From NCBI RefSeq assembly GCF_025950095.1, contig NZ_JAPDDR010000006.1, positions 310,001 through 374,000 on the forward strand: 64,000 bases of DNA, given 5' to 3'. The position numbers and the translations under genes are program-made. The notes beneath the pieces are model-generated. The model did no database searches and was not told the origin of the DNA. It worked only from the letters and a program-made list of their open reading frames with translations. Positions 33,516 through 51,413 of the stretch are shown piece by piece; positions within the stretch are counted from its first letter, which is position 1, and each line of letters starts with the position of its first letter. The stretch is from Luteolibacter rhizosphaerae. Lineage in GTDB: Bacteria; Verrucomicrobiota; Verrucomicrobiia; Verrucomicrobiales; Akkermansiaceae.

Positions 33516-33718
33516 GCCTGATCCGGCGAAGCCGAGCGGAGTCCGCCTCTGCTGGCTCGCTTGGCGCAAAACGCCCTTCCCCACACGGAATCCCTGCAAC
33601 GCAAGGGGTACCCCGGGGAAATTTGGTTAGTGGCCCCTTTTTCCGGTTGCCACCCGCTAGGCCGGTTTGCAGACTCCGCGCCCGCGCCGGATTTTACACT
33701 CCGGTTCGACCACGAAAG

Positions 33719-33742
33719 AGCTTGTGAAAAATTTCACAAGCT
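33719..33742. promoter_or_regulatory. 24-bp palindrome of CRP/FNR type upstream of the ACIII operon
   Basis: AGCTTGTGAAA (33719-33729) and TTTCACAAGCT (33732-33742) are perfect inverted arms around AA. The core reads TTGTGA-N6-TCACAA, the spacing and half-sites of CRP-family operators. It lies in the 267-bp gap between the small membrane gene and actA, 40 bp before the actA ATG. No other gene or clear structure is seen in that gap. Confidence 0.6.
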
Positions 33743-33782
33743 ACCAAAATTTCTCCGCCGAGCACTCCGTCGCAGCACCGTT

Positions 33783-34496
33783 ATGGCCAACTTCTTTCCG
33801 CGCTGGACCAACTTTCTGCCCCTGAAAATCGCCATTTGTGCAGGTGCTGTGGCAGGCGGCGCGGTGCTGGCGTTCACTTACTACGCCACCCCGAAGACTC
33901 TTGCGGTCGGTTATCAGCCCTCTCAGCCGATCCCGTTTTCACACAAAATTCACGTCGATCAGCTCGGGCTGGATTGCCGTTACTGCCACTCCTTCGTGGA
34001 TGTTTCCGGTACTTCGAACGTCCCGGGTAACAACACCTGCTGGAACTGTCACCAGCACGTCGCCAAGGATAGCCCGAAGCTCCAGCCGCTGCGCGATCGC
34101 ATGGATCCGGCCCTGAAGAGCCCGGACTTCGGCAAGCCGATCGAGTGGGTCCGCATCCACAAGACCCCGGATTACGTTTACTTCAACCACTCCGCGCACG
34201 TGAACCGCGGCATCTCCTGCCAGAGCTGCCACGGCCGCGTCGATCAGATGGAGGTGGTCTATCAGGAGAACAGCCTGTCCATGGGCTGGTGCCTCGATTG
34301 CCACCGCGCTCCCGAGAAGCACATCCGTCCGCTCGAGGAAGTCTACAACCTGAAGTACGACCCCGAGAAGTACATCGCCGCCAATCCGGAGCTGATGTCC
34401 AAGCTGGGCGTCAAGACCACCGAGGATCTCGGCAAGAAGCTGGTGGAACACTGGCAGATCAAGGCGCGCGAGTCCTGCGCGACCTGCCACCATTGA
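33783..34496 (+). CDS. actA: Alternative complex III pentahaem cytochrome c (ActA)
   Basis: 237 residues. One N-terminal membrane helix (KIAICAGAVAGGAVLAFTYYA) anchors a periplasmic domain with five CxxCH haem sites: CRYCH, CWNCH, CQSCH, CLDCH and CATCH. This is the ActA subunit of alternative complex III, which passes electrons from menaquinol through the Fe-S/haem wire to a soluble or bound cytochrome c. It is the first gene of the operon. The ATG at 33783 has no Shine-Dalgarno sequence; an open frame continues upstream to 33561 but crosses the palindrome and is not used. Confidence 0.92.
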   Translation: MANFFPRWTNFLPLKIAICAGAVAGGAVLAFTYYATPKTLAVGYQPSQPIPFSHKIHVDQLGLDCRYCHSFVDVSGTSNVPGNNTCWNCHQHVAKDSPKLQPLRDRMDPALKSPDFGKPIEWVRIHKTPDYVYFNHSAHVNRGISCQSCHGRVDQMEVVYQENSLSMGWCLDCHRAPEKHIRPLEEVYNLKYDPEKYIAANPELMSKLGVKTTEDLGKKLVEHWQIKARESCATCHH

Positions 34497-34554: not shown

Positions 34555-37500
34555 ATGAGCAAGCGCATCTGGCAACATCCCGAGGTTCCCGCCGACGAAA
34601 CCACCGTTTCCTGGCGCAGCGTCGGTCAGCTTGAGGACACCCCGGAATTCCGCACCTGGATGGAGCGTGAGTTCCCGCAGGGCGTCGCCGAGATGGTGAA
34701 CGAGGAAGATGCCGAGACCTCGCGCCGTTCCTTCCTGAAGCTGATGGGTGCCTCCACGGCCCTTGCCGGTTTCGGACTCGCCGCCTGCCGCCGCCCGGAA
34801 AGCTATATCGTCCCCTACAACAAGGCTCCCGAGTGGGTGATCCCGGGTAAGGCGACCTACTACGCTTCCAGCATGCCCCGCTCCGGCGGTGCCACCCCGC
34901 TGGTCGTGACCACTTTCGAAGGCCGCCCGACCAAGGTCGCGCCGAACGCACTCCACCCGGACATGACCGGCACGGACGCCTTCGTCCAAGCCTCCATCCT
35001 CGACCTCTACTCGCCCTCGCGCTCGCGCAAGGTGCTGAACAAGGCCCAAGCTTCCAGCCGCGCCGAGTTCGAGAAGGTTCTCGCCGGTCTCGCCGCCGAT
35101 CCTGCCGCCAAGATCGGCTTTGTCTTCGGTCACGATGACTCGCCGACCCGCTCGCGCCTCCTCAAGAAGCTCACCGAGAAGTTCGCCTCCGCCAAGTTCT
35201 ACGCCTACGAGGCCCTCGAGGGCACCCAGGTGCTGGCCGATGGCGTGAAGCTGGTCGCCGACTACTCCCAAGCCGACCGCATCCTCTCGCTCGATAGCGA
35301 TTTCCTTTGCCTCGATGGCCAAGGCTCGACCGTTCCCTTCTTCAACCGCCGCAAGCCGGAAGGCGCGGCCTACGACAAGAAGGCCGATCCGGCCTCGATG
35401 AATCGCCTCTACGCCGTCGAGAGCACCTACTCGATGACCGGCGGCATGGCCGATCACCGCCTCCGCGTGGCGCCAAGCATGCTGCTCCGCGTCGCTGCCC
35501 AGATCGGCCGCGCCTTCGGCGTGACCTCGGGCGTCGAAGCCGTCACGGACGAGAAGCACCTCAAGTGGATCGAGGCTCTCGTGGCCGATCTCCAAGCCTC
35601 CGGCTCCAAGTCGCTGGTCCTCGCCGGCCCCCGCCAGCCGGAAGCCGTGCAGCTGCTTGCTCTCGCGATCAACCAGAAGCTCGGCAGCATCGGCGAAGGC
35701 AAGCCGCTCAAGGCGGTCCAGACCGACGCCACCGGCCTCGCGAACTTCTCGCAGCTTGTCACCGACCTGAATGCGGGCGCGATCGATACCCTCTTCCTGC
35801 TGACCCCGGCCAACCCGGTCTATGATGCTCCGGCAGACGGCGGCTTCATCCCGGCCCTCGCCAAGGTCAAGACCGTGATCCATCTCGGTGCCCGCACCGA
35901 TGCTACCGCGCACGCCGCCACCTGGCACGTCCCGGTCAGCCACTACCTCGAAAGCTGGGGTGACGCCCGCACGATCAACGGTGTCTACACCGTCGTGCAG
36001 CCGATGATCCTGCCGCTCTACAACGAGTGCGCCAGCGAACTTGAGATCCTCGCCGCCTTGCTCGACAAGGAAGGCAAGCTCGTCACCGGCGAAACTGCCG
36101 ATGGCAAGCCCTCCCCGGCCTACGACGCGGTCCGCGAGACCTTCGGCGTGATCGGCGGGGAAGGGGAGGACGCTTGGAAGAAGCTTCTGCGCGATGGCTT
36201 CCACGCCGGCACCGCCTACACGCTGGTCGAGCCCGCCGCCAGTGAGGCCACCATCAAGGCTCCGGTCACCAGCGAAGGCCTCGAAGTGATTTTCTCCACC
36301 GACGGCTCCGTCTACGACGGCCGCTGGATCGACAACGGCTGGCTTCAGGAAGCCCCCGATCCGGTCTCCAAGCTCTCGTGGGACAATGCCGCGCTGATCG
36401 CCCCGGAAACCGCCAAGAATGTCGGCATCTACGAGGAGATCGTTAAGCTCGAAACCGATCGCGCCGCCAAGGCCCCGGAAGGTGATGCCGAAGGCCCGCA
36501 GCGCACCGGCCCGATGATCAAGGTGAAGGTGAACGGCGCGGAGCTCGAGCTCCCCGTGATGATCGCTTTCGGTCAGGCCGAGAACACCATCGTCATCCCC
36601 CTCGGCTACGGCCAGGGCTTCGACAAGGAAGACAAGTTCGACCGCAACTCGAAGGGCTTCACCCCCGCCAGCCACGTCGGCCAGGTTGGTGTGAACTCCG
36701 GCTTCAATGCCTACCCGCTCCGCACCGGGGAAACGAAGTACTTCGCTACCGGCGCCAAGATCGAGAAGACCGGCCGCCGCTACCCGCTGGCCCTCGTGCA
36801 AGAGCACTTCGCCATGTATGGCCGCGCCCTCGCCCGCGAGATCTCGACCATGACGGACGAGAAGAGCGGCAAGGACTTCGCCACCCAGCTGCACGACGCA
36901 AAGCTGCAAGGCAACGACAGCCACGCACCGCCGAACATCTCGCTCTACAAGCAGGAAGACAAGAAGGGCAACTCGCACCTCAGCGACCCGCTTCACCAGT
37001 GGGGCATGACGATCGACCTCTCGTCCTGCATGGGCTGCAACGCCTGCCTCATCGCCTGCCAGGCCGAGAACAACATCCCGATCGTCGGCAAGGAGCAGGT
37101 CATGAAGGGCCGCGAAATGCACTGGATCCGCATGGACCGCTATTTCGCGATCGATAAGGACAACGACTTCGACGCCGGCAGCCCGGCCCTCATCCCGCAG
37201 CCCGTCGCCTGCGTGCAGTGCGAAAGCGCTCCCTGCGAAACCGTCTGCCCGGTCAACGCGACCATCCACACGGAAGACGGCCTCAACGCGATGGCCTACA
37301 ACCGTTGCATCGGCACCCGCTACTGCGCGAACAACTGCCCGTATAAGGCCCGCCGCTTCAACTTCTTCGATTACAACAAGCGCAACCCGCTCATCGCCGA
37401 CAACCTTTACAAAGGTCCCTTCGGCGAGAAGCAGGTCGGCACCGCCCCGCACCTCCAGCGCAATCCGAACGTCTCCGTCCGCATGCGCGGCGTGATGGAA

Positions 37501-37872
37501 AAGTGCACCTACTGCGTGCAGCGCCTGAAGGACGCCAAGATCCGCCAGAAGCGCGGCCAGAAGCAGGAAGCCCTGCTCGCCGGCAAGGCCTCGGTTGATT
37601 CCTCCGTCAGCACTCACACCCTCCGGATCCCGGTGGATTCCGTGAAGGTCGCCTGCCAGGAAGCCTGCCCCGCAGGTGGCATCGAGTTCGGCAACCTTCT
37701 CGATGGCGACAGCGCCGTGATGAACCGCGCCAAGAAGAGCGAGCGCAACTACGACCTGCTCCACTACATCGGCACCAAGCCGCGCACCAGCTACCTGGCC
37801 CGCGTCAAGAACCCGAATGACAAGATGCCCGACGCCAAGTTCGTCGGCAAGGCCACCATCCACATGCACTGA
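34555..37872 (+). CDS. actB: Alternative complex III iron-sulfur subunit (ActB)
   Basis: 1,105 residues. A Tat signal ([12 protein letters not shown]) near residue 56 indicates export of the folded protein. The first 800 residues are a molybdopterin-oxidoreductase-like domain that in ACIII holds no Mo cofactor. The C-terminal part carries four ferredoxin-type clusters: [11 protein letters not shown] (about 824), [24 protein letters not shown] and CTYCVQRL with CQEACPAGG (about 1033). This fusion of the NrfC- and molybdopterin-type parts is the normal ActB form. It faces the periplasm and receives electrons from the quinol site at ActC. It starts 58 bp after actA behind a pyrimidine-rich leader. 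Confidence 0.95.
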
Positions 37873-37921: not shown

Positions 37922-39418
37922 ATGGCCACCGCCACCGAACACGCCCCGAGCCACACCCGCCAAGGACCGAAGCTTCCGGTTCTCGAGCGCGAGAAGCTCA
38001 TCCTGAACGGCCGTTCCTACCACTGGATCACCGAGCGCATCTGCGGCGTTCTGGAGAACCGCCAGCCCCTCCTCTGGTGGCTGCTCTTCCTCCCCTCCGC
38101 TCTCATCGCCATGGTCGGCGTCGGCCTCGGCCTGACCTACCTCGTCTCCACCGGTGTCGGTGTCTGGGGCATGTCGAACCGCGTCTTCTGGGGCTGGGAC
38201 ATCACCAACTTCGTGTTCTGGATCGGTATCGGTCACGCCGGCACCCTGATCTCCGCGGTGCTCTTCCTCACCCGCCAGAATTGGCGAACGTCCATCAACC
38301 GCGCGGCGGAGGCCATGACCATCTTCGCCGTGATGTGCGCCGGTATTTTCCCGGCCTTCCACGTCGGTCGTGTCTGGATGGCCTGGTTCCTCGCTCCCAT
38401 CCCGAACGCGAACGCGATCTGGCAGAACTTCAAGTCCCCGCTGCTCTGGGACGTGTTCGCCGTCTCCACCTACTTCACCATCTCGCTGATCTTCTGGTAC
38501 CTCGGCATGGTGCCGGACCTCGCGACCATCCGCGACCGCTGCAAGCCCGGCCTCCGCAAGATGCTCTACGGCATCTTCGCCATGGGCTGGCGCGGTGGTA
38601 ACCGCCAGTGGAGCCACTACGAAATGGCTTACCTGCTTCTGGCCGCCCTTTCCACCCCGCTCGTGCTCTCGGTGCACTCGGTCGTGTCCTTCGACTTCGC
38701 CACCTCCGTCGTCCCCGGCTGGCACACCACCATCTTCCCGCCCTACTTCGTCGCAGGTGCCATCTTCGGCGGCTTCGCGATGGTGCTCACCATCATGGTC
38801 CCCGCACGCCAGATCTACGGCCTGCACGACGTGATCACGATGAAGCACATCGACAACATGGCGAAGATCATCCTGCTCACCGGCACCATCGTCGGCTACG
38901 CCTACCTCATGGAGCTCTTCGTCGCCTACTACTCCGGCGCGAAGTACGAGATGGACGCCTTCAAGTTCCGTATCACCGGTCCCTACTGGTGGGCCTACCT
39001 GGCCATGATGTCCTGCAACGTCCTCTCCCCGCAGCTCTTCTGGTTCAAGGCCTGCCGTGAAAACCTCTGGGTCGTCATGGGCGTCGCCATGGCCGTGAAC
39101 ATCGGCATGTGGTTCGAGCGCTTCGTCATCATCGTCACCACCCTCGCCCGCATGTTCCTGCCGGGTGATTGGAAGTCCTACAGCCCGAGCTGGGTGGAGA
39201 TCATGCTCTTCATCGGCACCATCGGCATGTTCCTCGCGCTCTTCCTCCTCTTCCTCCGCTTCCTGCCCTGCATCAACATCGCGGAAGTGAAGTGGACCCT
39301 CAAGGAGTCCGACCCGCACCACGACGATCATCACGATCACCCGGACCACGGCACCGAACTCATCCCCGCCTACCAGCGCGAGCTCCACGGCAAGCCCATC
39401 GTCGGTCCCGACAACTGA
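37922..39418 (+). CDS. actC: Alternative complex III quinol-binding membrane subunit (ActC, NrfD family)
   Basis: 498 residues with about ten membrane helices of the NrfD/PsrC type. It should bind menaquinol at the periplasmic side and pass electrons to ActB. Conserved-looking parts are [20 protein letters not shown] and [19 protein letters not shown], with His/Asp residues in the helices that are typical of the quinol site. The C-terminus is His/Asp-rich ([12 protein letters not shown]), a common feature of the family. The ATG at 37922 follows the 35-nt leader element. Confidence 0.93.
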
Positions 39419-39458: not shown

Positions 39459-40013
39459 GTGAGTACCACCCGCAAACGCGTCTACGGCTACCTCGCCGAA
39501 TTCGGAAGCGCTTCCGCCCTCTACAAGGCGGCCGAGAAAGTGCGCGACGCCGGCTTCCGCAAGTGGGATTGCCACACGCCTTATCCGGTTCACGGCCTCG
39601 ATGCCGCCATGGGCATGAAGCGCTCGATCCTCCCTTGGTTCGTGTTCTTCGGAGGTATGCTCGGTACCGCTACGGGATTCGGTCTCGCCTATATCACCCA
39701 GGTCGAAATCTACCCGACCGTGGTGCAGGCCAAGCCGGCGAACATCTTCACGGTGCCCGCCTTCTTCCCCATCATGTTCGAGCTGACCATCCTCTTCTCG
39801 GGCTTCACCACCCTCTTCGGTCTGCTGGCGCTGATGAAATTGCCCAGACTAAACCACCCGCTTTTCGCGAGCCGTCAGTTCCACAGAGCCACCGACGACG
39901 CCTTCTTCATCGCCGTCGAGGCCCGCGACCCGAAGTTCCATCCCGACAAGACCCGCTCCTTCCTCGAGGAAATCGGCGGGAAAAGCATCGAACTGGTTGA
40001 AGAGGAAGACTGA
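39459..40013 (+). CDS. actD: Alternative complex III subunit ActD (DUF3341)
   Basis: 184 residues, GTG start at 39459. A soluble N-terminal part (VYGYLAEFGSASALYKAAEKVRDAG, then CHTPYPVHGLDAAMG) and two membrane helices are the DUF3341 pattern of ActD. Its exact role in ACIII is structural; no cofactor motifs are seen. The leader (39433-39453) has weak 7-nt periodicity (GGAACTT, TTCACTT). Confidence 0.9.
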   Translation: MSTTRKRVYGYLAEFGSASALYKAAEKVRDAGFRKWDCHTPYPVHGLDAAMGMKRSILPWFVFFGGMLGTATGFGLAYITQVEIYPTVVQAKPANIFTVPAFFPIMFELTILFSGFTTLFGLLALMKLPRLNHPLFASRQFHRATDDAFFIAVEARDPKFHPDKTRSFLEEIGGKSIELVEEED

Positions 40014-40061: not shown

Positions 40062-40751
40062 GTGAAATACTTCTTCATCGCCTACGCGATCATCGCCGCC
40101 CTCTTCATCGGCCTCATGCCGATGCGCGGCGCGAAGTCGGCCGATACCCCGATCCGGCTCCTGCCGGACATGGATGAGCAGGACAAGCTCAAGCCCCAGA
40201 AGCCGGATCCCTTTTTCGCGGATGGCCAGGGCGCGCGTCTTCCCGTTCACGGCACCCAGGCTCTCGGCTTCAATGCCGAAGGTGCCTCCGAGATCGGCGG
40301 CATCCCCGAATACGAGTTCGGTGGCGGCACCGGCTACTACGCCACCGGCGGCGTCGAGGGCTACTTCGCCAATGGCATGCCGGAAGAGCTCAAGCTCACC
40401 GCGGAGAACGTCGGTGCCTTCCTCAAGCGCGGCGAGGAGTCCTTCAATGTCAACTGCGCCATCTGCCACGGCACCTCCGGCGATGGCCAAGGCATCACCG
40501 GCCAGTTCGGCGTCCCCGGCATCGCGAACCTCACCCAGGACACCTACGGCCAGGCTGCCTATCCGGATGGTCGCCTCTTCTACGTGATCACCAACGGCAA
40601 GGGCAACATGGGCGCTTACAAGCACAACGTCTCCCTCCGCGACCGCTGGGCCATCGTCGCCTACGTCCGTGCCCTCCAGTTCGCTCGCAAGGCCCCGTAT
40701 GACGCCGTGAAGGAAGCCTACGACAAGGGCATCGCCACGCAGGCCAAATAA
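40062..40751 (+). CDS. actE: Alternative complex III monohaem cytochrome c (ActE)
   Basis: 229 residues, GTG start. An N-terminal hydrophobic segment (FFIAYAIIAALFIGLMP) is followed by the ActE-type loop KPQKPDPFFADGQGARLPVHGT and a single haem site NCAICHG at about residue 130; YFANGMPEEL contains a possible Met ligand. No lipobox Cys is present, unlike ActE lipoproteins of some species. It should carry electrons from ActA/ActB toward the downstream cytochromes and oxidase. Confidence 0.9.
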   Translation: MKYFFIAYAIIAALFIGLMPMRGAKSADTPIRLLPDMDEQDKLKPQKPDPFFADGQGARLPVHGTQALGFNAEGASEIGGIPEYEFGGGTGYYATGGVEGYFANGMPEELKLTAENVGAFLKRGEESFNVNCAICHGTSGDGQGITGQFGVPGIANLTQDTYGQAAYPDGRLFYVITNGKGNMGAYKHNVSLRDRWAIVAYVRALQFARKAPYDAVKEAYDKGIATQAK

Positions 40752-40772: not shown

Positions 40773-42158
40773 ATGTCACATCACTTCGTCACCTCAGCCG
40801 ACATCCCGGTCGACGGCGAGCGCATCTCCAGCAGCAAGCTGGACAATGTGAAGCGCATCTCGGGCGGTGTCGCCGCGATCACCGGCCTGATCAGCGCCTA
40901 CCTGCTCTTCGCTGCTCCGGACAAGATCGCCGGTCCCTTCGCCTACTCTTGGCTCTTCGCGCTGTTCTTCTTCTTCACCCTCGCCGTCGGCGGCTGCTTC
41001 TGGACACTTCTTCACAATGTCTCGAACTCGGGGTGGGGGACTTCGGTCCGCCGCATCATGGAGAACCTCGGTGCCGTCTTCCCTTGGATGGCGATCTTCG
41101 CCGCGCCGCTGCTCTTCCCTGCTGTCCAGAAGTGGCTCTATGAGTGGATGACCATCCACCAGCATGCCGCTCACAACGGAGGCTCCTATTTCAGCAGCCC
41201 CTTCATGGGCTTCTACGGTACCGAGTCGATGGAAGCCGCGCTTACCAAGGACCATCAGGCCCTGCTTGTGAACAAGCAGTGGTACATGAACAAGGTCGCC
41301 TGGTATGCCCGCTTCGCCTTCTACTTCATCGGCCTCGGCCTCGTGATCCGCGGCCTCCGCAAGCTCTCCACCGCTCAGGACAGCGATCCGAATCCCGGCA
41401 CAGCGAACCTCTTCAAGGCGCGCAAGCACTCCACCTACACCCTGATCATCTTCGCGATCACGATCACCTTCGCCGGTATCGATTGGCTGCAGGGCATGAA
41501 GTTCGATTGGTTCTCCACAATGTGGGGGGTCTACCTCTTTGCCGGTGCGGCCCTGAACTCCATGGCGGTCATCATCATCACCGCCACCCTCATGCAAAAG
41601 GGCGGCTATCTGAAGCGCGTGGTCGGTCCGGAGCACTTCCACATCATGGGCAAGCTGCTCCTCGCCTTCACCATCTTCTGGGCCTACATCGCCTTCTCCC
41701 AGTTCTTCCTCATCTGGTATGCGAATATCGCCGAGGAAACCTCCTGGTACCTCATCCGTAACACGGAAGGCTGGAACGTCGGTAGCATCGCCTTGGTCTT
41801 CGGTCACTTCGTCATCCCCTTCGTTGTCCTCCTGCAGGCTTGGCTGAAGAAGAACCCGAAGCTCCTCAGCATCGTCGCCGTCTATACTCTGGCGATGCAC
41901 ATCCTCGATCACTACCTCATCGTGATCCCGGAGCGCTCGGTTTCCCTGAAGAATATGGTGGGTGAAGCGGGTATCAATCTCCCCGCGGAGTTTGCCTCCT
42001 ACACCACCGCTGTCCCGGGTGCATTCGTCGGCGATATCTTCGCCTTCATCACCATCGGTTCTGGCTTCGTCTTCTTCTACCTCCGCGCCCTCACGCAGAA
42101 CGCGACCTACCCGCATCGCGACCCGCGCATCCTCGAATCCGCCAACGTCTCCAACTAA
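40773..42158 (+). CDS. actF: Alternative complex III membrane subunit ActF
   Basis: 461 residues with ten membrane helices, a shorter relative of ActC in the NrfD/PsrC group. FLIWYANIAEETSWYLIR in the C-terminal half is a conserved ActF stretch. It completes the ActABCDEF set. ActF is thought to contribute to the proton path of ACIII. It begins 21 bp after actE. The next gene is separated by a 93-bp repeat-filled leader. Confidence 0.92.
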   Translation: MSHHFVTSADIPVDGERISSSKLDNVKRISGGVAAITGLISAYLLFAAPDKIAGPFAYSWLFALFFFFTLAVGGCFWTLLHNVSNSGWGTSVRRIMENLGAVFPWMAIFAAPLLFPAVQKWLYEWMTIHQHAAHNGGSYFSSPFMGFYGTESMEAALTKDHQALLVNKQWYMNKVAWYARFAFYFIGLGLVIRGLRKLSTAQDSDPNPGTANLFKARKHSTYTLIIFAITITFAGIDWLQGMKFDWFSTMWGVYLFAGAALNSMAVIIITATLMQKGGYLKRVVGPEHFHIMGKLLLAFTIFWAYIAFSQFFLIWYANIAEETSWYLIRNTEGWNVGSIALVFGHFVIPFVVLLQAWLKKNPKLLSIVAVYTLAMHILDHYLIVIPERSVSLKNMVGEAGINLPAEFASYTTAVPGAFVGDIFAFITIGSGFVFFYLRALTQNATYPHRDPRILESANVSN

Positions 42159-42251: not shown

Positions 42252-43046
42252 ATGTCCTCTTCCAGCGACAATCCCCTGATCCGTTTCGCCGCCTTCTGGT
42301 GGGCGCTCGGCGTCTTCTCGCTCTTCGCGGTGATCCTCATCGCGTTGAAAATTTTCGGCGGCGGGGCTCCGGAGAATGATCCCTTGGAAGAAGCGGCCGC
42401 TACCAAGCGCTACGAGACCGCTTCCAAGATCCACGCAGCTCAGGAAGCGAACTTCGCCTTCAAGGAAGTCGAAGCCGGCAAGGTCGTTCAGGTTCCGCCT
42501 CACGCCGCTTTCGATGCGGTCGGTAAGAACCTTCTGGGCGATAAGGTGGCGAAGGTGGAAGCGGACACTCAAATCCATCCTGATGGTGACATCGCCAAGG
42601 CAAAGGCCGCCGAGCAAGGTCCTGACATGGGCCCGATCGACGCCCTCACCCCTCCCGCCGACACCCCGGTGGATCCCGCGCTCATTGAAGCCGGCAAGGC
42701 TGGCTTCATGGTCTGCATGGCCTGCCATGGTGCCAATGGCGAAGGCGGTCCCGTCGGACCTCCGCTTGCCGGATCCGAGTGGGTCACCGGCCCGGTCTCG
42801 AATCTCATCCGCATCCAGCTCCGCGGCCTGAATGGCCCGATGCACATCAAGGGCCAGCTTTACACCCCGGTCGCTCCCATGGCTCCGCTCTCCTACCAGA
42901 CGGATGACCAGATCGCCGCCGTCCTCACCTTCGTCCGCAATAGCTTCGGCAACAAGGCGGCTCCGGTGCTTCCCAAGCAGGTCGAAATGCTCCGCTCCGA
43001 GGTGGGCAAGCCGATGCTCACCGAAGCGGACCTGATCAAGCCCTGA
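42252..43046 (+). CDS. Membrane-anchored monohaem cytochrome c (first of two)
   Basis: 264 residues. An N-terminal membrane helix (FAAFWWALGVFSLFAVILIAL), a charged linker of about 100 residues, and one class I cytochrome c domain with CMACHG at about residue 156 and likely Met ligand in PMAPLS. The C-terminal tail VRNSFGNKAAPV is shared with the second cytochrome c at 45396 (VRNNFGNSSGDV), so the two are paralogues. It probably passes electrons from ACIII to the oxidase. It lies between actF and the CcoN-like gene. Confidence 0.85.
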   Translation: MSSSSDNPLIRFAAFWWALGVFSLFAVILIALKIFGGGAPENDPLEEAAATKRYETASKIHAAQEANFAFKEVEAGKVVQVPPHAAFDAVGKNLLGDKVAKVEADTQIHPDGDIAKAKAAEQGPDMGPIDALTPPADTPVDPALIEAGKAGFMVCMACHGANGEGGPVGPPLAGSEWVTGPVSNLIRIQLRGLNGPMHIKGQLYTPVAPMAPLSYQTDDQIAAVLTFVRNSFGNKAAPVLPKQVEMLRSEVGKPMLTEADLIKP

Positions 43047-43065: not shown

Positions 43066-44583
43066 ATGTCTTCCACCACTTCCCAGACCCCGGTGAACGA
43101 TGCGGTGCGCCGCGCGCAGATCGATATTTCGCTGCGCCACCCGGTGATGTTCTTCTTCACCAGCGGTGCCGCATGGCTCGCGGTCGCCATCTTGCTCGGC
43201 ATCATCGCTTCGGCGAAGGTGCATAGCCCCGGCTTCCTCGATGGCGTCTCTTGGCTCACCTACGGTCGGGTCCAGTCCGCCCACATCAGTGCGCTGGTTT
43301 ACGGCTGGGGTTGCCAGGCTGCCTTCGGTGCCCTCGTCTGGCTCATGGCCCGCCTCTCCCGTCAGGAGTGCCGCGCCGCCGGCATCATCCTCGTCGCCGG
43401 TCACGTTTGGAATCTCGCGATCTCGCTCGGCATCCTCGCCATTCTCGGTGGTGCAGGCACCGGCATGCCGTGGATGGAGTTCCCGGCCTTCGCTTGGGTC
43501 CCCATGCTGCTCGCCTATGGTGCCATCGCCATCTGGTCGATGGTGCAGTTCAAGGTCCGCCCCGCCGGTCACGTTTTCATCTCGCAGTGGTACATCCTCG
43601 CCGCGCTGATCTGGTTCCCTTGGGTCTTCGCCAGCGCCCACCTGCTGGTCCACGGCTTCGCCGGTAACCCGGTGATGGCCGCCGCCATCAATGCCTGGTA
43701 CCGCTCCGCGCTGCTTTTCCTCTTCTTCATCCCCACCGGGATTGCCGCCGCCTACTATCTCATCCCGAAGGTCACCGGCCGCCCGGTTTACAGCTACTCG
43801 CTGTCCTCCCTCGGCTTCTGGTCGCTCGCGATCATCGCTCCATGGGCGGGCATGCAGAAGCTCGCCGGTGCTCCGATCCCGAATTTCCTGCCTTACCTCG
43901 GCGCCGCCGCCACCATCCTTTTCGCCGTTCCTGCGATTGCCGTCGGCGTGAACCTGCTCAAGACCGCGGCCGGTGCTCCGGACACCGTGGTAAATAGCCC
44001 CTCGCTTCGCTTCACCCTCGCCGGGGTGATCTGCCTGCTGGTGCTCGCTCTCGCCTGCGTCTTCCTGAACAACCCGGCCATCCTGCCCGGCACCCAGTTC
44101 TCGATGGCCGGTTACGGCTTCGATATCCTGGCCCTCTACGCCTTCTTCAGCTTCATCGCCTTCGGCATGATCTACTTCGTGGTGCCCCGCATCACCCGTC
44201 GCGAGTGGCTTTCCAGCCGCTTGATCAAGATGCACTTCTTCCTCTCCGTCTACGGGGTGGCGCTGGTCGTGATCGTCGCCCTCTTCGGCGGCGTCATGCA
44301 GGGCGTGGGTCTTGAAGCTTACAAGCAGCCTTGGGAAGACGCCTCCATGCGCGCCTACCCCTACGCCGTGGCCACCACCTTGGCCTGGTGCTTCCTCCTC
44401 TTCTCGAACGTCTTCTTCTTCTTCCACCTTACCCTCATGTGGCTCCGCCTCGGCCGTCGCAGCTCGCACCCGACGCTCCTCGGACATGCCCATCACGATG
44501 ATCTCCACGATGCCACCCACGGCCCCGAAGGCGATATCGACAATGCCGGCCCCGGTTCCGCTGCCGCCGCCCACTCCCACTAA
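43066..44583 (+). CDS. CcoN-like haem-copper oxidase subunit I homologue lacking most metal ligands
   Basis: 505 residues with about 13 membrane helices, alignable with cbb3 oxidase CcoN along its length: GRVQSAHISALVYGW, YYLIPKVTGRPVYSYSLSSL, FGMIYFVVPR. One low-spin haem His is kept (His73 in QSAH). The CuB His of the CcoN motif YGHN is Ser214 (WYRSA), the CuB His-His pair is Gln264-Lys265 (WAGMQKLAG), and the helix-X GHVHSG haem ligands are replaced in GYGFDI (349-354). It therefore cannot form the binuclear centre and is not a working oxidase. A structural or electron-transfer role in the ACIII-oxidase supercomplex is inference. The C-terminus is His/Asp-rich. Confidence 0.85.
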   Translation: MSSTTSQTPVNDAVRRAQIDISLRHPVMFFFTSGAAWLAVAILLGIIASAKVHSPGFLDGVSWLTYGRVQSAHISALVYGWGCQAAFGALVWLMARLSRQECRAAGIILVAGHVWNLAISLGILAILGGAGTGMPWMEFPAFAWVPMLLAYGAIAIWSMVQFKVRPAGHVFISQWYILAALIWFPWVFASAHLLVHGFAGNPVMAAAINAWYRSALLFLFFIPTGIAAAYYLIPKVTGRPVYSYSLSSLGFWSLAIIAPWAGMQKLAGAPIPNFLPYLGAAATILFAVPAIAVGVNLLKTAAGAPDTVVNSPSLRFTLAGVICLLVLALACVFLNNPAILPGTQFSMAGYGFDILALYAFFSFIAFGMIYFVVPRITRREWLSSRLIKMHFFLSVYGVALVVIVALFGGVMQGVGLEAYKQPWEDASMRAYPYAVATTLAWCFLLFSNVFFFFHLTLMWLRLGRRSSHPTLLGHAHHDDLHDATHGPEGDIDNAGPGSAAAAHSH

Positions 44584-45395: not shown

Positions 45396-46154
45396 ATGAT
45401 CGATCCTTCCAAGCCCGACCTCGAGGAATCGGTGAACGTCACCGAAGCCCACGAGCGCGTCCTCCGCGGTGCGGCCGCGGCGTCCCGCGAGAACAAGCTC
45501 ACCGAGAACGGTGCCGAGCCCGTTTCCATGTGGGTCATGGCCCTCTGCTTCATCCCGATGCTGGCCGCCGGCTGGACCCTCGGGAATGCGGGCACCCTAT
45601 TCTCCTACAAGGACACCCTGAAGTCGGGCTATGTCCGCGTGATCCCCGCCGATGACGAGGCGGGCGGTGCACCTCCGGGACCTGCCCTCGACATCTACAT
45701 GAAGAAGGGCGCCAAGATTTACTCGAAGTGCAGCGGTTGCCACGGCCCGGACGGTAAGGGTGATGGCAATGCCTATCCTTCCCTCGCCGGATCCAAGTGG
45801 GTTCTGGGTGAGACCGAAGTCTTCGCCATGGTGGTGCTGAACGGCCTCACCGGCCCGACCTCCTCCGGTAAGACCTACGGCGTGATGCCCGCCCAAGGGG
45901 CCGGCATGAGCGGTGAAGACCTCGCCGCCCTGATGACCTACGTCCGCAACAACTTCGGCAACAGCTCCGGTGACGTCGTCACCAAGCAGATGGGTGCCGC
46001 CGCTCTGGAGATCTCCCAGGCTCGCGCGAAGGCCGGTGCTCCGGTGACCGCCGACGAGCTCACCGCCGACCACAAGAAGAACCTGCCGGGCGATCCCTTG
46101 GAAGCGTCCCTGCCCATCGATCCGGTTACCCTCGAGCCGGTGGCCGCCCCGTAA
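45396..46154 (+). CDS. Membrane-anchored monohaem cytochrome c (second of two)
   Basis: 252 residues with a cytoplasmic N-terminal stretch, one membrane helix (SMWVMALCFIPMLAAGWTL) and a haem site CSGCHGPDGKGDG at about residue 112, with Met ligand candidates in YGVMPAQG. The tail after the haem domain resembles the first cytochrome c. It sits directly before ctaD, so it is well placed to donate electrons to the CuA centre of CtaC. Confidence 0.85.
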   Translation: MIDPSKPDLEESVNVTEAHERVLRGAAAASRENKLTENGAEPVSMWVMALCFIPMLAAGWTLGNAGTLFSYKDTLKSGYVRVIPADDEAGGAPPGPALDIYMKKGAKIYSKCSGCHGPDGKGDGNAYPSLAGSKWVLGETEVFAMVVLNGLTGPTSSGKTYGVMPAQGAGMSGEDLAALMTYVRNNFGNSSGDVVTKQMGAAALEISQARAKAGAPVTADELTADHKKNLPGDPLEASLPIDPVTLEPVAAP

Positions 46155-46172: not shown

Positions 46173-48077
46173 ATGAGCGCTCACGCCGCATCTGCCGATC
46201 ACCACGGCCACGACGATCACCACCACCACGAGCCCGGCTTCTGGTCGAAGTACGTCTTCTCCACCGATCACAAGACGATCGGTATCCAGTACGGTCTCAC
46301 CGCCATGGCCTTCCTGGCCTTCGGCTTCTACCTGATGATGGTGATGCGCTGGAGCATCGCTTACCCGCACCAGCCCCTGCCGGAGTGGATGAGCTGGATC
46401 TTCACCGATACCTGGAAGGCCCGCTGGCTCCAGGACGGCAAGGTCACGGGTGAGACTTACAACATGTTCGGTGCCATGCACGGCACCATCATGGTGTTCT
46501 TGGGCATCGTGCCCCTCGGTTTCGGTGCCTTCGGTAACTACGTCACGCCGCTCCAGATCGGTGCGGTCGACATGGCCTTCCCGAAGCTGAACATGACCAG
46601 CTACTGGCTCTACCTGCTGGGTGGCCTGGTGATGTGCGCCTCCTTCTTCATGGAGTCCGGTGCCGCCAAGTCCGGTTGGACGAACTATTCGCCGCTCGCG
46701 GGCTTCGCGGATGGCCAGATCGTGAACCAGTGGCTCGCCGGCCAGACGCAGTGGCTTCTCGGCCTCGTCCTGCTGATCTCTTCCTCGTTGCTTGGTTCGG
46801 TGAACTTCATCACCACGATCATCAACCTGCGCGCCCGCGGCATGACCTGGATGCGCATGCCCTTCTTCGTCTGGGCGATGCTCGTCACCGGCTTCCTGCT
46901 TCTCCTCGCGTTCCCGCCGCTTGAAGCCGCCGGCATCATGCAGCTCATGGATCGGGTCACGCACTCGTCCTTCTTCATGCCCTCCGGCCTCTTCTCGAAG
47001 GCGGAAGGTCTGGCCGATCTCTCCGGTGGCGGCTCCCCGCTCCTGTTCCAGCACCTCTTCTGGTTCCTCGGTCACCCGGAGGTGTACGTGCTCCTGCTCC
47101 CCGCCATCGCGTGCGTGGCGGAGATCATCCCGGTGAATACCCGCCGCCCGCTCTGGGGCTACAAGGCGATGGTCTACGGCGTGCTCGTCCTCGGCTTCCT
47201 CTCCTTCATCGTGTGGGCTCACCACATGTATCTCACCGGCATGGGTCCGGTCGTCTCGACCTTCTTCCAGACCACCACGGTGCTGATCTCGATCCCCTCG
47301 GTGATCTTGCTCACCTCGATGATCATCTCGCTCTGGGGCGGTTCCATCCGCTTCACCCCGGCCATGATCTGGGCCTGCGCCTTCCTGCCCATGTTCGGTA
47401 TCGGCGGTCTCACCGGTCTGCCGCTGGCCTTCAACTTGGTGGACCTCCACCTGCACGATACCTACTACGTCATCGGCCACTTCCACTACGTGGTGGCCCC
47501 GGGTATCCTCTTCGGCCTCTTCGCTGGCGTGTATCACTGGTATCCGAAGATCACCGGTCGCCACATGAGCAACTTCCTGTCCCATGTGCACTTCTGGCCG
47601 AGCCTGATCTGCATGAACCTGATCTTCTTCCCCATGCTCACGCAGGGCATGGCAGGCTTCCACCGCCGCTGGTACAATGGGGGTGATGCCTACTTCGCCG
47701 GGGAAAACACCGCGAACGAGTTCGGCAAGGTCGTCGCCGAGCACATCGACCTGAACATCCTCATGTCCTGGGGTGCTTGGATCATGGCTGTTGCCCAGAT
47801 CCCCTTCGTGATCAACCTCTTCACCGCATGGAAGCTGGGTAAGAAGGTCGAAAGCGACAATCCTTACAACGCGACCACCCTCGAGTGGGCCACGCCGACG
47901 CCTCCGGGCCACGGCAACTTCCTCACCGAGCCCGCCGTCTACCGCGGTCCCTATGAGTACAGCCGCCCGGATTGCGAGGAGGATTTCCTCCCGCAGTGGG
48001 AAGAGCCGAAGCGCGATGCCGCCGTGCCCGCCGCCTCGGAGACTCCCGGCAAACCGTCCACCCATCCTTCCCACTGA
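46173..48077 (+). CDS. ctaD: Cytochrome c oxidase subunit I, A-type (CtaD)
   Basis: 634 residues with 12 to 13 membrane helices. All active-site residues are present: low-spin haem His in FGAMHGTIM, CuB His and cross-linked Tyr in LGHPEVYVL, the CuB His pair in WAHHMYLTG, and haem ligands in GHFHYVV. GHPEVY with Glu is the A1-family proton channel signature. This is the catalytic subunit that reduces oxygen to water and pumps protons, the real terminal oxidase of this operon. The N-terminus is His-rich. The long C-terminal tail is Pro/Glu-rich and of unknown use. Confidence 0.95.
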   Translation: MSAHAASADHHGHDDHHHHEPGFWSKYVFSTDHKTIGIQYGLTAMAFLAFGFYLMMVMRWSIAYPHQPLPEWMSWIFTDTWKARWLQDGKVTGETYNMFGAMHGTIMVFLGIVPLGFGAFGNYVTPLQIGAVDMAFPKLNMTSYWLYLLGGLVMCASFFMESGAAKSGWTNYSPLAGFADGQIVNQWLAGQTQWLLGLVLLISSSLLGSVNFITTIINLRARGMTWMRMPFFVWAMLVTGFLLLLAFPPLEAAGIMQLMDRVTHSSFFMPSGLFSKAEGLADLSGGGSPLLFQHLFWFLGHPEVYVLLLPAIACVAEIIPVNTRRPLWGYKAMVYGVLVLGFLSFIVWAHHMYLTGMGPVVSTFFQTTTVLISIPSVILLTSMIISLWGGSIRFTPAMIWACAFLPMFGIGGLTGLPLAFNLVDLHLHDTYYVIGHFHYVVAPGILFGLFAGVYHWYPKITGRHMSNFLSHVHFWPSLICMNLIFFPMLTQGMAGFHRRWYNGGDAYFAGENTANEFGKVVAEHIDLNILMSWGAWIMAVAQIPFVINLFTAWKLGKKVESDNPYNATTLEWATPTPPGHGNFLTEPAVYRGPYEYSRPDCEEDFLPQWEEPKRDAAVPAASETPGKPSTHPSH

Positions 48078-48121: not shown

Positions 48122-49750
48122 ATGGAAATCCCCTATATCGTCACCCCGCGCAAGGACACCGGCCTCTTCAACTCGAAGATCGCCATCTGGCTCTTCCTCG
48201 CGTCGGAAGTCATGCTCTTCGGCGGCTTCTTCTCCGCCTATATCTTCCTGCGCCTCGGTGCGGATTACCCCTGGCCGGAGCGCACGCTCCCGGTGCTCCC
48301 GGGCTTGATCAATACCTTCGTCCTGATCGCCTCCTCGGTGACCGTGGTCTTTGCCTGGGCCTCGCTCAAGCTGCGGCAGTGGGGCAAGTTCCAGGCCTAC
48401 ATGGGCTTCACCGTCATCTGCTCGATGGTGTTCATGGTGCTCAAGGGCATTGAGTACAACGTGAAGTTCCATCACCAGGCGCTTCGCACCAAGGACTTCT
48501 CGATCGTTGAAGGCCACCTCGCCTACGAACTGAAGGATGGCGTGCATCACGAGCACGGCCACGAGCCGAAGGAAGAGGATTTCGCCCTTAACCACCACGG
48601 CAAGAAGTTCGAGGAGAACGTCATCAACTTCGAGACCACCCAGGTCAGCTTCAATACCGTCCGCTTCCACAAGGACTGGGTGGAGGAGATGATTCACCAC
48701 GCCAAGGAGCGCAATTCGACCATCAAACTGGCCTCCCAGCTCGACCTGAAGACCGCTCCGGACAAGACCGTGACCTTCGCGGCCGGCACCGATCTCGATA
48801 TCGCCCTGCTGGAGTCGATCAAGAAGGCCCACCTCGCCGCCCGCGCCCACAATGCGGACCTGCGCACCGAGGAACTCCGCCGCCTCTGGAAGGAAGCGAA
48901 GAAGGCCAATCCGGAAAAGGATGACCGCGAGCTCTCCCCGGGAATCACGGTGGACGCCACCAAGCTGGCGCTCATGCCAGAAGCTCCCTCGATCTCCTTC
49001 ACGGTCCAGCCGCCCGTCACCTTCCACTACAAGCCCCGCGATATCCAGGAGTCTCCGGCCGCCGGCACCCTGCGCGATGGCACCGCCCTCGTCGGCAAGT
49101 TGCTCGAAAGCCCGATGGGCTTCCACTACGTCGACGCCATTGACTTCCGCCACCTCGTCATGAAGGCAGAGGAGAAGGGGATCGATCCCGCCGTCGCCAT
49201 CGCCAATTCCTGGCTGATGAAGGAGAACTCCGAGTTCCGCGCCATCTGGGAGAAGCAACAGAAGGCCCTCGGCCAGCTTGCCGATGCCCTCAAGGAAAAG
49301 GGCCGCGTCCCGACCGAGAAGGACAAGTACCGGATCAACTGGCAGGAAATGGCCTATTACATGGATACGGACCTCGCCGATGTGGCGATCAAGCCCGGTG
49401 CCTATGTCATGCCCGGCGTTTCTCTCAACAACAAGGAGCAGTTCCTCGGTCCGGATTACCACATCCGCCACTTCCCGCACCTGAATGTCCCGCGCGAGCA
49501 GGTTCTCTTCGCCTCCAAGTTCGCTCCGGCTTGGAACACCTATTACGCCATCTACTTCACGATGACCGGCCTCCACGGCCTCCACGTGATCGGCGGCGCT
49601 CTCGTCCTCGCCTACTACCTCTTCTGCGGCAAGAAGATGTATCTCTCTAACCCTGAGTGGCTTGCAAACCGAGTGGAAATCGGCGGCCTGTTCTGGCACT
49701 TCGTCGACCTGGTCTGGATCTTCCTGTTCCCGATCCTCTATTTGATGTAA
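48122..49750 (+). CDS. ctaE: Cytochrome c oxidase subunit III with a large internal insertion (CtaE)
   Basis: 542 residues, more than twice the normal length of about 200. The ends are ordinary subunit III: WLFLASEVMLFGGFFSAYIFL and VLKGIEYNVKF at residues 23-116, and YAIYFTMTGLHGLHVIGG plus GLFWHFVDLVWIFLF from about 475 to the end. Between them, about residues 118-465 form a charged soluble domain with no membrane helix and a His-rich stretch (HHEHGHEPKEED). Reading frame and codon use are continuous, so it is not a misassembled join. The function of the insertion is unknown. Confidence 0.9.
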   Translation: MEIPYIVTPRKDTGLFNSKIAIWLFLASEVMLFGGFFSAYIFLRLGADYPWPERTLPVLPGLINTFVLIASSVTVVFAWASLKLRQWGKFQAYMGFTVICSMVFMVLKGIEYNVKFHHQALRTKDFSIVEGHLAYELKDGVHHEHGHEPKEEDFALNHHGKKFEENVINFETTQVSFNTVRFHKDWVEEMIHHAKERNSTIKLASQLDLKTAPDKTVTFAAGTDLDIALLESIKKAHLAARAHNADLRTEELRRLWKEAKKANPEKDDRELSPGITVDATKLALMPEAPSISFTVQPPVTFHYKPRDIQESPAAGTLRDGTALVGKLLESPMGFHYVDAIDFRHLVMKAEEKGIDPAVAIANSWLMKENSEFRAIWEKQQKALGQLADALKEKGRVPTEKDKYRINWQEMAYYMDTDLADVAIKPGAYVMPGVSLNNKEQFLGPDYHIRHFPHLNVPREQVLFASKFAPAWNTYYAIYFTMTGLHGLHVIGGALVLAYYLFCGKKMYLSNPEWLANRVEIGGLFWHFVDLVWIFLFPILYLM

Positions 49751-49787: not shown

Positions 49788-50159
49788 ATGGCTGACTCAC
49801 CAGAAGCTATCAAGAAAGCGACCCGCCTCTACCTGTTGATCGGTGGAGTGCTGTTCGCGGGCACCGTCATTACCGTGTTGGTCGCCACCATGCCCCAGCT
49901 CGACTTCGGCAAGCACGGTTTCGACACCGCCGACCTTGTCATCGGTCTGCTCATTGCAACCGTGAAGGCTTCCTTGGTGGCGCTGATCTTCATGCACCTT
50001 AACCACGAGAAGCGCCTGATCTACTGGCTCTTCGGCTTTGGCTTCGCGGGTGCCTTCTTCCTTCTCGCCCTTACCGCTCTAGCCGTTTGGAATCCCATTC
50101 GCTACAATGGTTTCAAGGACGGCGTCCCCGGTTCGGAAAAAGTCCACACCTGGCGCTGA
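49788..50159 (+). CDS. ctaF: Cytochrome c oxidase subunit IV family protein (CtaF/COX4)
   Basis: 123 residues with three membrane helices. The stretch VIGLLIATVKASLVALIFMHLNHEKRLIYW is characteristic of bacterial cytochrome oxidase subunit IV in its parts (TVKASLVALIFMHL). It is an accessory subunit that helps assemble the oxidase. It starts 37 bp after ctaE. Confidence 0.88.
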   Translation: MADSPEAIKKATRLYLLIGGVLFAGTVITVLVATMPQLDFGKHGFDTADLVIGLLIATVKASLVALIFMHLNHEKRLIYWLFGFGFAGAFFLLALTALAVWNPIRYNGFKDGVPGSEKVHTWR

Positions 50160-50186: not shown

Positions 50187-50387
50187 ATGTCGCTGAGAGC
50201 ATTTCACATCGTCTTCGTAACCGTGAGCACCCTGCTCTTCGTGTTTCTTGCCGTGTGGGCCTTCGCGCTCGTCGCGGATCGCAGCACCATGGTCACCACG
50301 CTCGGCGTGGTCAGCGCCATCGGTGCCGTCGTCATGCCCGTCTACGGCATCTTCTTCTACCGCAAGGTCCGCAACATCGTGCTCTGA
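50187..50387 (+). CDS. Tiny two-helix membrane protein in the oxidase operon, unknown
   Basis: 66 residues, almost entirely two membrane helices (FVTVSTLLFVFLAVWAFALV and VVSAIGAVVMPVYGIFFY) joined by a short loop with Asp and Arg. The operon position between ctaF and ctaC suggests an oxidase assembly or structural subunit. I do not recognise the family. Confidence 0.7.
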   Translation: MSLRAFHIVFVTVSTLLFVFLAVWAFALVADRSTMVTTLGVVSAIGAVVMPVYGIFFYRKVRNIVL

Positions 50388-50393
50388 ACCGCC

Positions 50394-50609
50394 ATGTTCG
50401 ATTCCCTACTCGCCTGCTCCACCTGCGCCGTCAATTTCCAAGACGACACGACCAATGCCGCCGGCTGGTCGATCTTCTTCATGCTCGGGATGATCCTTCC
50501 CGTGCTTCTCGGTGTGGTCTTCTTCATGGTCCGCCTCGTCCGTCGCAGCAATGTCGAGCTTGAGCCCGAGTTCCGCGACGAACTGCCCGCCGCCACCCCT
50601 TCCCGCTGA
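50394..50609 (+). CDS. Tiny single-helix membrane protein in the oxidase operon, unknown
   Basis: 71 residues, 6 bp after the previous gene. It has a short N-terminal part with a Cys pair (LLACSTCAVNF), one membrane helix (WSIFFMLGMILPVLLGVVFFMV) and a charged tail. The CSTC motif could bind copper or haem, but this is a guess. It is 15 bp before ctaC. Confidence 0.65.
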   Translation: MFDSLLACSTCAVNFQDDTTNAAGWSIFFMLGMILPVLLGVVFFMVRLVRRSNVELEPEFRDELPAATPSR

Positions 50610-50624: not shown

Positions 50625-51413
50625 ATGAGTCCTTCGAAATTCCTCAGCATCCCGGAAAACTTCTCCGCCCACGGCGGCCGGGTGGATCACCTCATCGATG
50701 TGGTCCACTGGTTCATGATCGCTCTCGGCGTCGGCTGGTTCCTCTTCTTCGCCTTCTGCCTGATCCGCTTCCGCGCCTCGGTGCATCCGCGTGCTTCTTA
50801 TCATGGCGTGCGCAACCACATCTCGAGCCACCTCGAGATCGCGGTGGTCATCATCGAGGCCGTGCTGCTCCTCGGTTTCGCCTTCCCGCTCTGGAAGGAG
50901 CGCACCGATACCTGGCAGCAGGTCCAGAAGCTCGATCCGGTCCGCGTCCGCGTCATCGGCTGGCAGTTCGGCTGGACCTACCACTACCCCGGCGCTGACG
51001 GGAAGTTCGGCCGCATCGATCCGCTTCGCATCACCAGCAACTCGGATCCTGGCATCGACCTCGACGACCCGAATGCCCAAGACGACTTCATCGCTCCGAT
51101 GCTCAAGATCGCCAAGGGCCGCCCGGCGATCCTGAACATCACCTCGAACGATGTGATCCACAACTATGCCATCGTCCCGATGCGCATCCAGCAGGACGCC
51201 ATCCCGGGCAAGGAAATCCCGATGTGGTTCACGCCGAACAAGACCCTCGAAACCTCCGTCGTCTGCGCCCAGCTCTGCGGTGAAGGTCACGGCAACATGA
51301 TCGGCCAGCTCGAAGTGGTGGAAGACAAGGCCTTCCGCACCTGGGCCGAAACCGAGTCCGCCAACGCGCTCAAGTCCCGCGCTCCCAAGCCCGAGTCGAC
51401 CGCCAGCCGCTGA
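50625..51413 (+). CDS. ctaC: Cytochrome c oxidase subunit II (CtaC)
   Basis: 262 residues. Two membrane helices (HWFMIALGVGWFLFFAFCLI and IAVVIIEAVLLLGFAFPLW) anchor a periplasmic cupredoxin domain. The CuA site is complete: His in NDVIHNYAIVPM and CAQLCGEGHGNM with Cys, Glu, His and Met ligands. No c-type haem domain is fused, so this is an aa3-like rather than caa3 enzyme. It is the last gene of the operon, unusual because ctaC normally precedes ctaD. Confidence 0.93.
   Translation: MSPSKFLSIPENFSAHGGRVDHLIDVVHWFMIALGVGWFLFFAFCLIRFRASVHPRASYHGVRNHISSHLEIAVVIIEAVLLLGFAFPLWKERTDTWQQVQKLDPVRVRVIGWQFGWTYHYPGADGKFGRIDPLRITSNSDPGIDLDDPNAQDDFIAPMLKIAKGRPAILNITSNDVIHNYAIVPMRIQQDAIPGKEIPMWFTPNKTLETSVVCAQLCGEGHGNMIGQLEVVEDKAFRTWAETESANALKSRAPKPESTASR

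Follow-up and report, generated by a model that had tools for sequence, protein, structure and literature searches.

A CcoN homologue stripped of its metal ligands between ACIII and an aa3-type oxidase in Luteolibacter rhizosphaerae, a probably recurrent loss in Verrucomicrobiota

The window, that is, the whole stretch of 64,000 nt that was analysed, comes from Luteolibacter rhizosphaerae (assembly GCF_025950095.1, contig NZ_JAPDDR010000006.1, positions 310,001 to 374,000, forward strand), the genome of which has 6.2 Mb in 31 contigs and is 98% complete. It contains a single plus-strand operon in which the ACIII genes are followed by a CcoP-like gene, a CcoN homologue, a CcoO-like gene, a further CcoP-like gene, and the genes of an aa3-type oxidase. 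The intergenic gaps from ActA to CoxD are 18 to 93 bases long, and a stretch of 465 bases precedes CoxB. The genes, in window coordinates, are the following.

33561..34496, +, ActA, pentahaem cytochrome c of ACIII (five CXXCH; start codon uncertain)
34555..37872, +, ActB, iron-sulfur subunit of ACIII
37922..39418, +, ActC, NrfD-like subunit
39459..40013, +, ActD (PF11821)
40062..40751, +, ActE, monohaem cytochrome c
40773..42158, +, ActF (match to solved ActF chains, best E 4.2e-49)
42252..43046, +, CcoP paralogue, a second CcoP-like monohaem cytochrome c, upstream of CcoN
43066..44583, +, CcoN homologue without metal ligands, 505 aa
44633..45376, +, CcoO-like monohaem cytochrome c (FixO domain; one CXXCH, residues 68-72)
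45396..46154, +, CcoP-like membrane monohaem cytochrome c (CXXCH and Met164)
46173..48077, +, CoxA, aa3-type subunit I (all four searched His motifs found)
48122..49750, +, CoxC, subunit III (about 370 residues between the third and fourth TM-like segments)
49788..50159, +, CoxD-like subunit IV
50625..51413, +, CoxB (CuA motif; no haem c motif)

The ACIII set is complete (pentahaem ActA, ActB, NrfD-like ActC, ActD, monohaem ActE, and ActF), and by motif search the aa3 oxidase next to it is fully liganded, with the His motifs in CoxA and the CuA motif in CoxB. Two small membrane-protein-like ORFs of 66 and 71 aa (positions 50187-50609) with membrane-helix character, too short for the ORF list, lie between CoxD and CoxB, and a profile search gave no Pfam match for the first of them. 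The segment of about 370 residues in CoxC has no Pfam match of its own; the CoxC of Methylacidiphilum is 263 aa long. In the Flavobacterium johnsoniae supercomplex, CoxC is the subunit that contacts ACIII, according to PMC8361435.

The catalytic subunit of a haem-copper oxidase is normally recognised by six His ligands, and one of these six is left in the CcoN homologue of the window. The positions concerned are listed below; the relatives referred to are the best 80 of 368 confirmed in a named collection, ranked by similarity to the window, and as the most similar of the 368 they are little informative on more distant relatives.

43282..43284, +, His73, the sole canonical haem ligand left (His in all of the best 80 of 368 named relatives)
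43705..43707, +, Ser214 at the helix-VI CuB His position
43837..43839, +, Ala258 at the active-site Tyr position
43855..43860, +, Gln264-Lys265 at the CuB His-His position
44119..44127, +, Phe352-Asp353-Ile354 in place of the helix-X HxH haem ligands

The protein has lost the haem b3 and CuB ligands, the Tyr of the active site, and one of the ligands of the low-spin haem. A sequence-only reading of this locus had aligned the protein with CcoN along its length, and the predicted fold, with 12 helices, agrees, matching known CcoN structures over 447-449 residues. The same reading had reported Ser214, Gln264-Lys265, and GYGFDI (349-354) for GHVHSG, with His73 alone remaining, all of which the alignment confirmed. 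In the window protein, neither the alignment nor the predicted fold places a His in helix VI, VII, or X. Because of the lost b3, CuB, Tyr, and low-spin ligands, O2 reduction would not be expected from it, and as judged from sequence and predicted fold the CcoN homologue is almost certainly non-catalytic.

With 143.7 bits against a cut-off of 34.8 for the Pfam COX1 profile, the protein belongs to the haem-copper oxidase superfamily, and it and CoxA are the only two COX1 matches in the genome. It reaches 96.7 bits with the NCBIfam ccoN model TIGR00780 (cut-off, 583.15), a cut-off that the full-ligand ACIII-linked CcoN proteins described below also miss (224 to 254 bits). The cbb3 CcoN subunits of known structure (PDB 3mk7, 8smr, and 6xkw) have the same fold, a homologous sequence, and CcoO and CcoP as gene neighbours; they differ from the window protein in having haem b3, CuB, the Tyr, and two low-spin haem ligands, whereas it has one low-spin ligand. 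The encoded module also departs from a standard cbb3 complex, in that its CcoO is without the distal Met (Cys168 instead) and its CcoP has one haem motif, compared with two in the standard CcoP.

Of 240 genomes drawn from Verrucomicrobiota, 76 matched the window CcoN at an E value of 0.001 or better, ordinary cbb3 oxidases included. The class of the window accounts for 53 matching genomes, one of which (G078) has a remnant; among the 52 operon copies of the others, 34 are stripped and 18 have all seven catalytic residues. All 52 class CcoN genes are accompanied by CcoO, and CcoP was found in 50; within the extent of each locus, they stand behind Act genes (L049, L037, and L067 are cut off by the stretch or contig). 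ActABCDEF precedes CcoN-CcoO-CcoP in both the stripped and the full forms, with few exceptions. Three loci of family f2 (L070, L071, and L087, in genomes G186, G183, and G195) read ActE-ActF-CcoNOP-CoxA-C-D-B, with ActA-D absent from the locus. A separate contig carries ActD in these genomes, which suggests a split operon in that genus. The full-ligand operons of Nibricoccus aquaticus and Actomonas aquatica, whose proteins are identical to those of L077 and L085, also carry the complete ActABCDEF-CcoNOP, with operon order and family as in the window. The full-ligand ACIII-linked oxidase has the seven catalytic residues and no CoxA within 7-8 kb behind it, and the window differs in both respects.

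A survey of ACIII operons for the same ligand loss had been proposed with the sequence-only reading, which would have been undermined by full-ligand relatives combined with a loss in one genome. Full-ligand relatives exist (the 18 above), but the loss is neither confined to a single genome nor a single event: a single-genome loss is rejected by the 34 stripped class operons and by the nearest named loci, since all of the best 80 of 368 are stripped, with Gln264 kept in 75 and Lys265 in 73 of the 80. They include isolates of Haloferula, Luteolibacter, and Roseibacillus. No earlier report of a ligand-free CcoN was found in the open-access literature. Stripped CcoN is spread over eight family codes (f1, 4 rows; f2, 6; f4, 4; f6, 2; f9, 1; f11, 1; f3, 2 of 7; f5, 14 of 19) and full CcoN over five (f3, 5; f5, 5; f10, 3; f12, 3; f13, 2), with f3 and f5 holding both forms. 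Among the stripped rows, 7 retain none of the seven residues, 21 retain one, 4 retain two, and 2 retain three. None of the 34 has the Tyr or the initial His of the HH pair, and all 18 full rows have the Tyr. Loci L075 and L076 (G013 and G166) represent an intermediate state in which both low-spin haem ligands are present and the haem b3-CuB-Tyr site is lost, which suggests that the active site was lost first. Each of the 34 genomes with a stripped gene has at least two COX1 matches, and thus at least one besides that gene. In two small genomes, G145 (L033) and G001 (L093), the full-ligand CcoN of the ACIII operon is the sole COX1 match, an indication that the full-ligand ACIII-linked cbb3-like enzyme functions as a terminal oxidase.

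Several trivial explanations of the missing ligands were considered and rejected. A sequencing or frame error does not agree with a length of 480 aa or more in all of the best 80 of 368 named loci or with a stripped state in many genomes. Ligands hidden by misalignment do not agree with the lack of an HH pair near helix VII in every stripped form (34 of 34 in the survey and 80 of the best 80 of 368 named). An identity as NorB was also rejected: NorB is a poorer structural match to the window protein than cbb3 CcoN is, and the haem b3-FeB positions have no His or other metal ligand. That CcoN still reduces O2 or NO by means of unconventional ligands, a reading supported by the fold alone, is extremely improbable, given helices VI, VII, and X free of His in the window, the HH counts above, and an HxH near helix X in one of the 34 stripped survey rows (L038, in which the other sites are lost) and in none of the best 80 of 368 named.

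Ligand loss very probably recurred independently in Verrucomicrobiota. On a CcoN tree with the ligand columns left out, the state changes three times, with at least two changes forced, and the stripped L086 nests in a full clade under a starred branch. Some stripped CcoN rows have long branches or an odd composition, and the count of losses was therefore taken from trees of the Act genes, which should suffer less from attraction among fast-evolving stripped sequences, on the presupposition that CcoN and the Act genes share one history. A six-gene Act tree (51 rows with a state, without L049; a quick search with no mixture model) requires 6 changes, all forced by starred branches, and an ActC-F tree under a mixture model (47 rows, without L037, L049, L070, L071, L087, and the outgroup; also a quick search) requires 7, of which at least 5 are forced. 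A single origin of all losses was rejected by constraining the stripped rows to one clade (p-AU 0.0001, lnL difference 1315). All nine outgroup CcoN rows are full, and the direction of change is therefore loss. The CcoN tree groups the stripped L038, L039, and L043, from different families, with others, whereas the Act trees separate them; L043 and L039 have long branches on the Act mixture tree also.

The claim that the gene is an intact member of the middle of the operon and is maintained by selection also held, with a qualification. Stripped CcoN is 480 aa or longer, with no broken copy, in all of the best 80 of 368 named loci. Its pairwise dN/dS is 0.04 to 0.23 over 10 pairs, and that of full CcoN is 0.02 to 0.05 in three of four pairs (the fourth is undefined); because dS is frequently close to 1 or higher in these pairwise estimates, and some values are undefined, they serve only as a sign of purifying selection. 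In two Methylacidiphilum pairs, dN/dS is 0.16 and 0.23 for CcoN versus 0.01 to 0.03 for CoxA. On the CcoN tree, the end branch of the stripped L086 has a length of 0.56, compared with 0.02 to 0.10 for its nearest full relatives. On these comparisons, selection on stripped CcoN is relaxed yet purifying.

Such relaxation would be expected of a decaying relic, in which CcoN has no role of its own, persists through an essential operon and the folding of CcoO and CcoP, and is eventually lost. Two genomes are in keeping with this. G078 (L064, 9016-11182) retains a 346-aa CcoN remnant beside CcoO and CcoP with intact haem motifs, and a genome search found no ActD in it; in G008 (L181), the ACIII genes are followed by CoxC-CoxD-CoxB, with CoxA on another contig (L206), and no CcoNOP was found beside the ACIII genes, so that the module was dispensable at least once. 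A relic is nevertheless rather unlikely, because no copy is broken among the best 80 of 368 named loci, His73, Gln264, and Lys265 are kept in 80, 75, and 73 of them, 42 residue columns are conserved in the stripped and full forms alike, and stripping is seen across eight of the surveyed family codes. A further 49 columns that are conserved in the full form are not kept in the stripped one, including polar ones in helices VI-IX. This speaks against a remaining role of CcoN in quinol binding or in proton or ion movement, which the sequence-only reading had left as an alternative. The retained 12-helix fold is compatible with it, as is the finding that cofactor-free NrfD-like subunits of ACIII can interact with quinones (PMC8076601); we consider it very unlikely.

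The earlier reading had been limited to CcoN, and the comparisons here extend to the whole CcoN-CcoO-CcoP module, to the distal Cys of CcoO, and to the recurrence of the loss. The haem motif CXXCH of CcoO is present in all 34 stripped and all 18 full operons, and that of CcoP is present in 34 of 34 and 16 of 16, respectively (no CcoP was found in the full loci L083 and L090). Met164 of CcoP is kept in 33 of the 34 stripped operons, the exception presumably being L076, in which this piece is cut by the contig start. Among the best 80 of 368 named loci, 57 have the CcoP paralogue upstream of CcoN. The distal haem ligand of a standard CcoO is Met. In alignment with solved cbb3 CcoO chains, Cys168 of the window CcoO (codon 45134..45136, +) takes the place of the Met in the MPxY motif, and the distal residue is Cys in all 78 CcoO proteins found among the best 80 of 368 named loci. 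In the survey (alignment read by eye), the distal Met is present in 18 of 18 full and 25 of 34 stripped operons; the nine without it are the four f1 rows, which have Cys, and L040, L044, L046, L073, and L099, which have other residues. A normal high-potential carrier role for CcoO is less likely in these nine, given the loss of the Met. Haems c with His/Cys ligation have low potentials, and a natural prediction for the window and its named relatives is a His/Cys-ligated CcoO haem of low potential.

This Cys, found in 78 of 78 named relatives against a Met in 18 of 18 full forms, and the invariance of His73 in the same named loci would suit a module that has acquired new chemistry or sensing, namely, a redox or gas sensor or regulator using the His/Cys haem of CcoO and perhaps a b haem on His73. 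We regard this as unlikely: a CcoP with its CXXCH and Met is kept beside stripped CcoN wherever the gene was found, a profile search detected no sensor or signalling domain in CcoN, CcoO, or CcoP of the window, and in the survey the Met-to-Cys swap is restricted to f1, whereas stripping is wider.

The terminal oxidase genes next to the module differ between the two forms. Of the 34 stripped operons, 14 have CoxA directly downstream of CcoP; the 18 full ones, all of which were read for 7.0 to 8.4 kb downstream, have none there. One of the 20 stripped operons without CoxA directly behind (L076) ends there. Among the best 80 of 368 named loci, CoxA directly follows CcoP in 68; six of the other 12 end within 141 bases of CcoP, and the remaining six (L140, L144, L145, L154, L157, and L173, all stripped) have no CoxA in the 8.3 to 8.4 kb behind CcoP. 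The stripped operons that lack an adjoining CoxA, and these six loci in particular, count against the bridge explanation favoured below. In G125, CoxB adjoins CcoP directly downstream. In G166, a CcoP piece at a contig end has CoxA-C-D-B on its strand about 6.5 kb behind it, and its counterpart CcoP piece terminates the Act-CcoNO contig; an aa3 cluster of this type is about 50 kb away in G013.

In a standard cbb3 oxidase, electrons pass through CcoP, CcoO, and the haem b of CcoN to the haem b3-CuB site, as outlined in the section of PMC7876108 on this path. By the predicted ligand inventory, this path ends before CcoN in the window. The ACIII of F. johnsoniae works with an aa3 oxidase and that of Rhodothermus marinus with a caa3 oxidase, as ACIII would with the aa3 type in the window. 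The relevant part of PMC8552683 proposes a sixth ActA haem as the bridge from ACIII to the oxidase in the former and a haem c on the caa3 oxidase in the latter. The window has neither, with five CXXCH in ActA and none in CoxB, and encodes CcoNOP between ACIII and aa3 instead, which makes CcoP-type cytochromes held by CcoN and CcoO the obvious candidates for a bridge. A caa3 oxidase whose CoxB carries a haem c motif is encoded elsewhere in seven of the eight stripped f5 genomes examined (not G220), and such a CoxB is also found elsewhere in both full f5 genomes. As these genomes have their own haem c on CoxB, one bridge function need not fit all stripped operons.

The explanation that we favour, with slightly better than even confidence, is that the CcoN homologue derives from an ACIII-linked cbb3-like oxidase that was demoted and kept as an anchor for monohaem cytochromes bridging ACIII to the aa3 oxidase. 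An ancestral ActABCDEF-CcoN-CcoO-CcoP operon would have encoded ACIII together with its own cbb3-like oxidase, an arrangement that relatives such as Nibricoccus aquaticus retain with every ligand. In the window lineage, O2 reduction would be carried out by the aa3 oxidase encoded directly behind (CoxA-CoxC-CoxD-CoxB), and the stripped CcoN would be retained as a 12-helix membrane scaffold that holds CcoO, CcoP, and the CcoP paralogue. The CcoO and CcoP cytochromes may then carry electrons from the haems of ACIII to CuA of the aa3 oxidase, and the trees show the same demotion to have very probably been repeated within Verrucomicrobiota. The sequence-only reading had proposed a component joining ACIII to the aa3 oxidase; its structural part is the best-supported function, a putative link that we infer from gene order, haem inventory, and conservation. 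Since the gene is kept intact beside its cytochrome partners despite repeated loss of the ligands, its product is probably a non-catalytic part of the respiratory chain and not an oxidase as annotated.

This bears on published descriptions of Methylacidiphilum. PMC6688271 reports a cbb3 oxidase co-located with ACIII in Methylacidiphilum kamchatkense Kam1 and takes it to fit a high O2 affinity, the review PMC8498564 lists a cbb3 oxidase adjoining ACIII in verrucomicrobial methanotrophs, and PMC11102522 applies the same label to the ACIII-linked oxidase of Methylacidiphilum. The HH and HxH ligands are missing from the CcoN of Kam1 (P0123), which is identical to that of G151, and from its M. infernorum counterpart (P0125). 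In four genomes of the Methylacidiphilum genus group, no gene product came close to the ccoN cut-off, the best being a CoxA-like gene with 28.5 of 583 bits, and in three of the four the only near-full-profile ccoN matches were the stripped gene (21.6 to 23.0 bits). Of 14 control genomes, one reached the cut-off in the same search, as did 4 of the 11 searched genomes. From the co-location with ACIII and the absence of another ccoN, the printed cbb3 entry is probably the stripped gene; the printed statements appear to rest on a stripped protein, and papers that call this oxidase cbb3 may need revision.

It is also conceivable, although we hold this with less than even confidence, that the stripped proteins are recurrent respiratory pseudo-oxidases which, after at least five losses, became a cytochrome-bearing connector from ACIII to another terminal oxidase, with the Met-to-Cys change of CcoO in Akkermansiaceae-like members giving a supercomplex unlike earlier ones. 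If true, an oxidase scaffold could be reused as a connector with its gene, gene order, and cytochrome partners kept. The exit of electrons from ACIII becomes a directly testable question, because liganded and stripped forms coexist in f3 (5 full, 2 stripped) and f5 (5 full, 14 stripped). In a different class of the phylum, L066 (G176) has its ACIII genes arranged divergently beside a cbb3 oxidase with a fused CcoNO and a CcoP.
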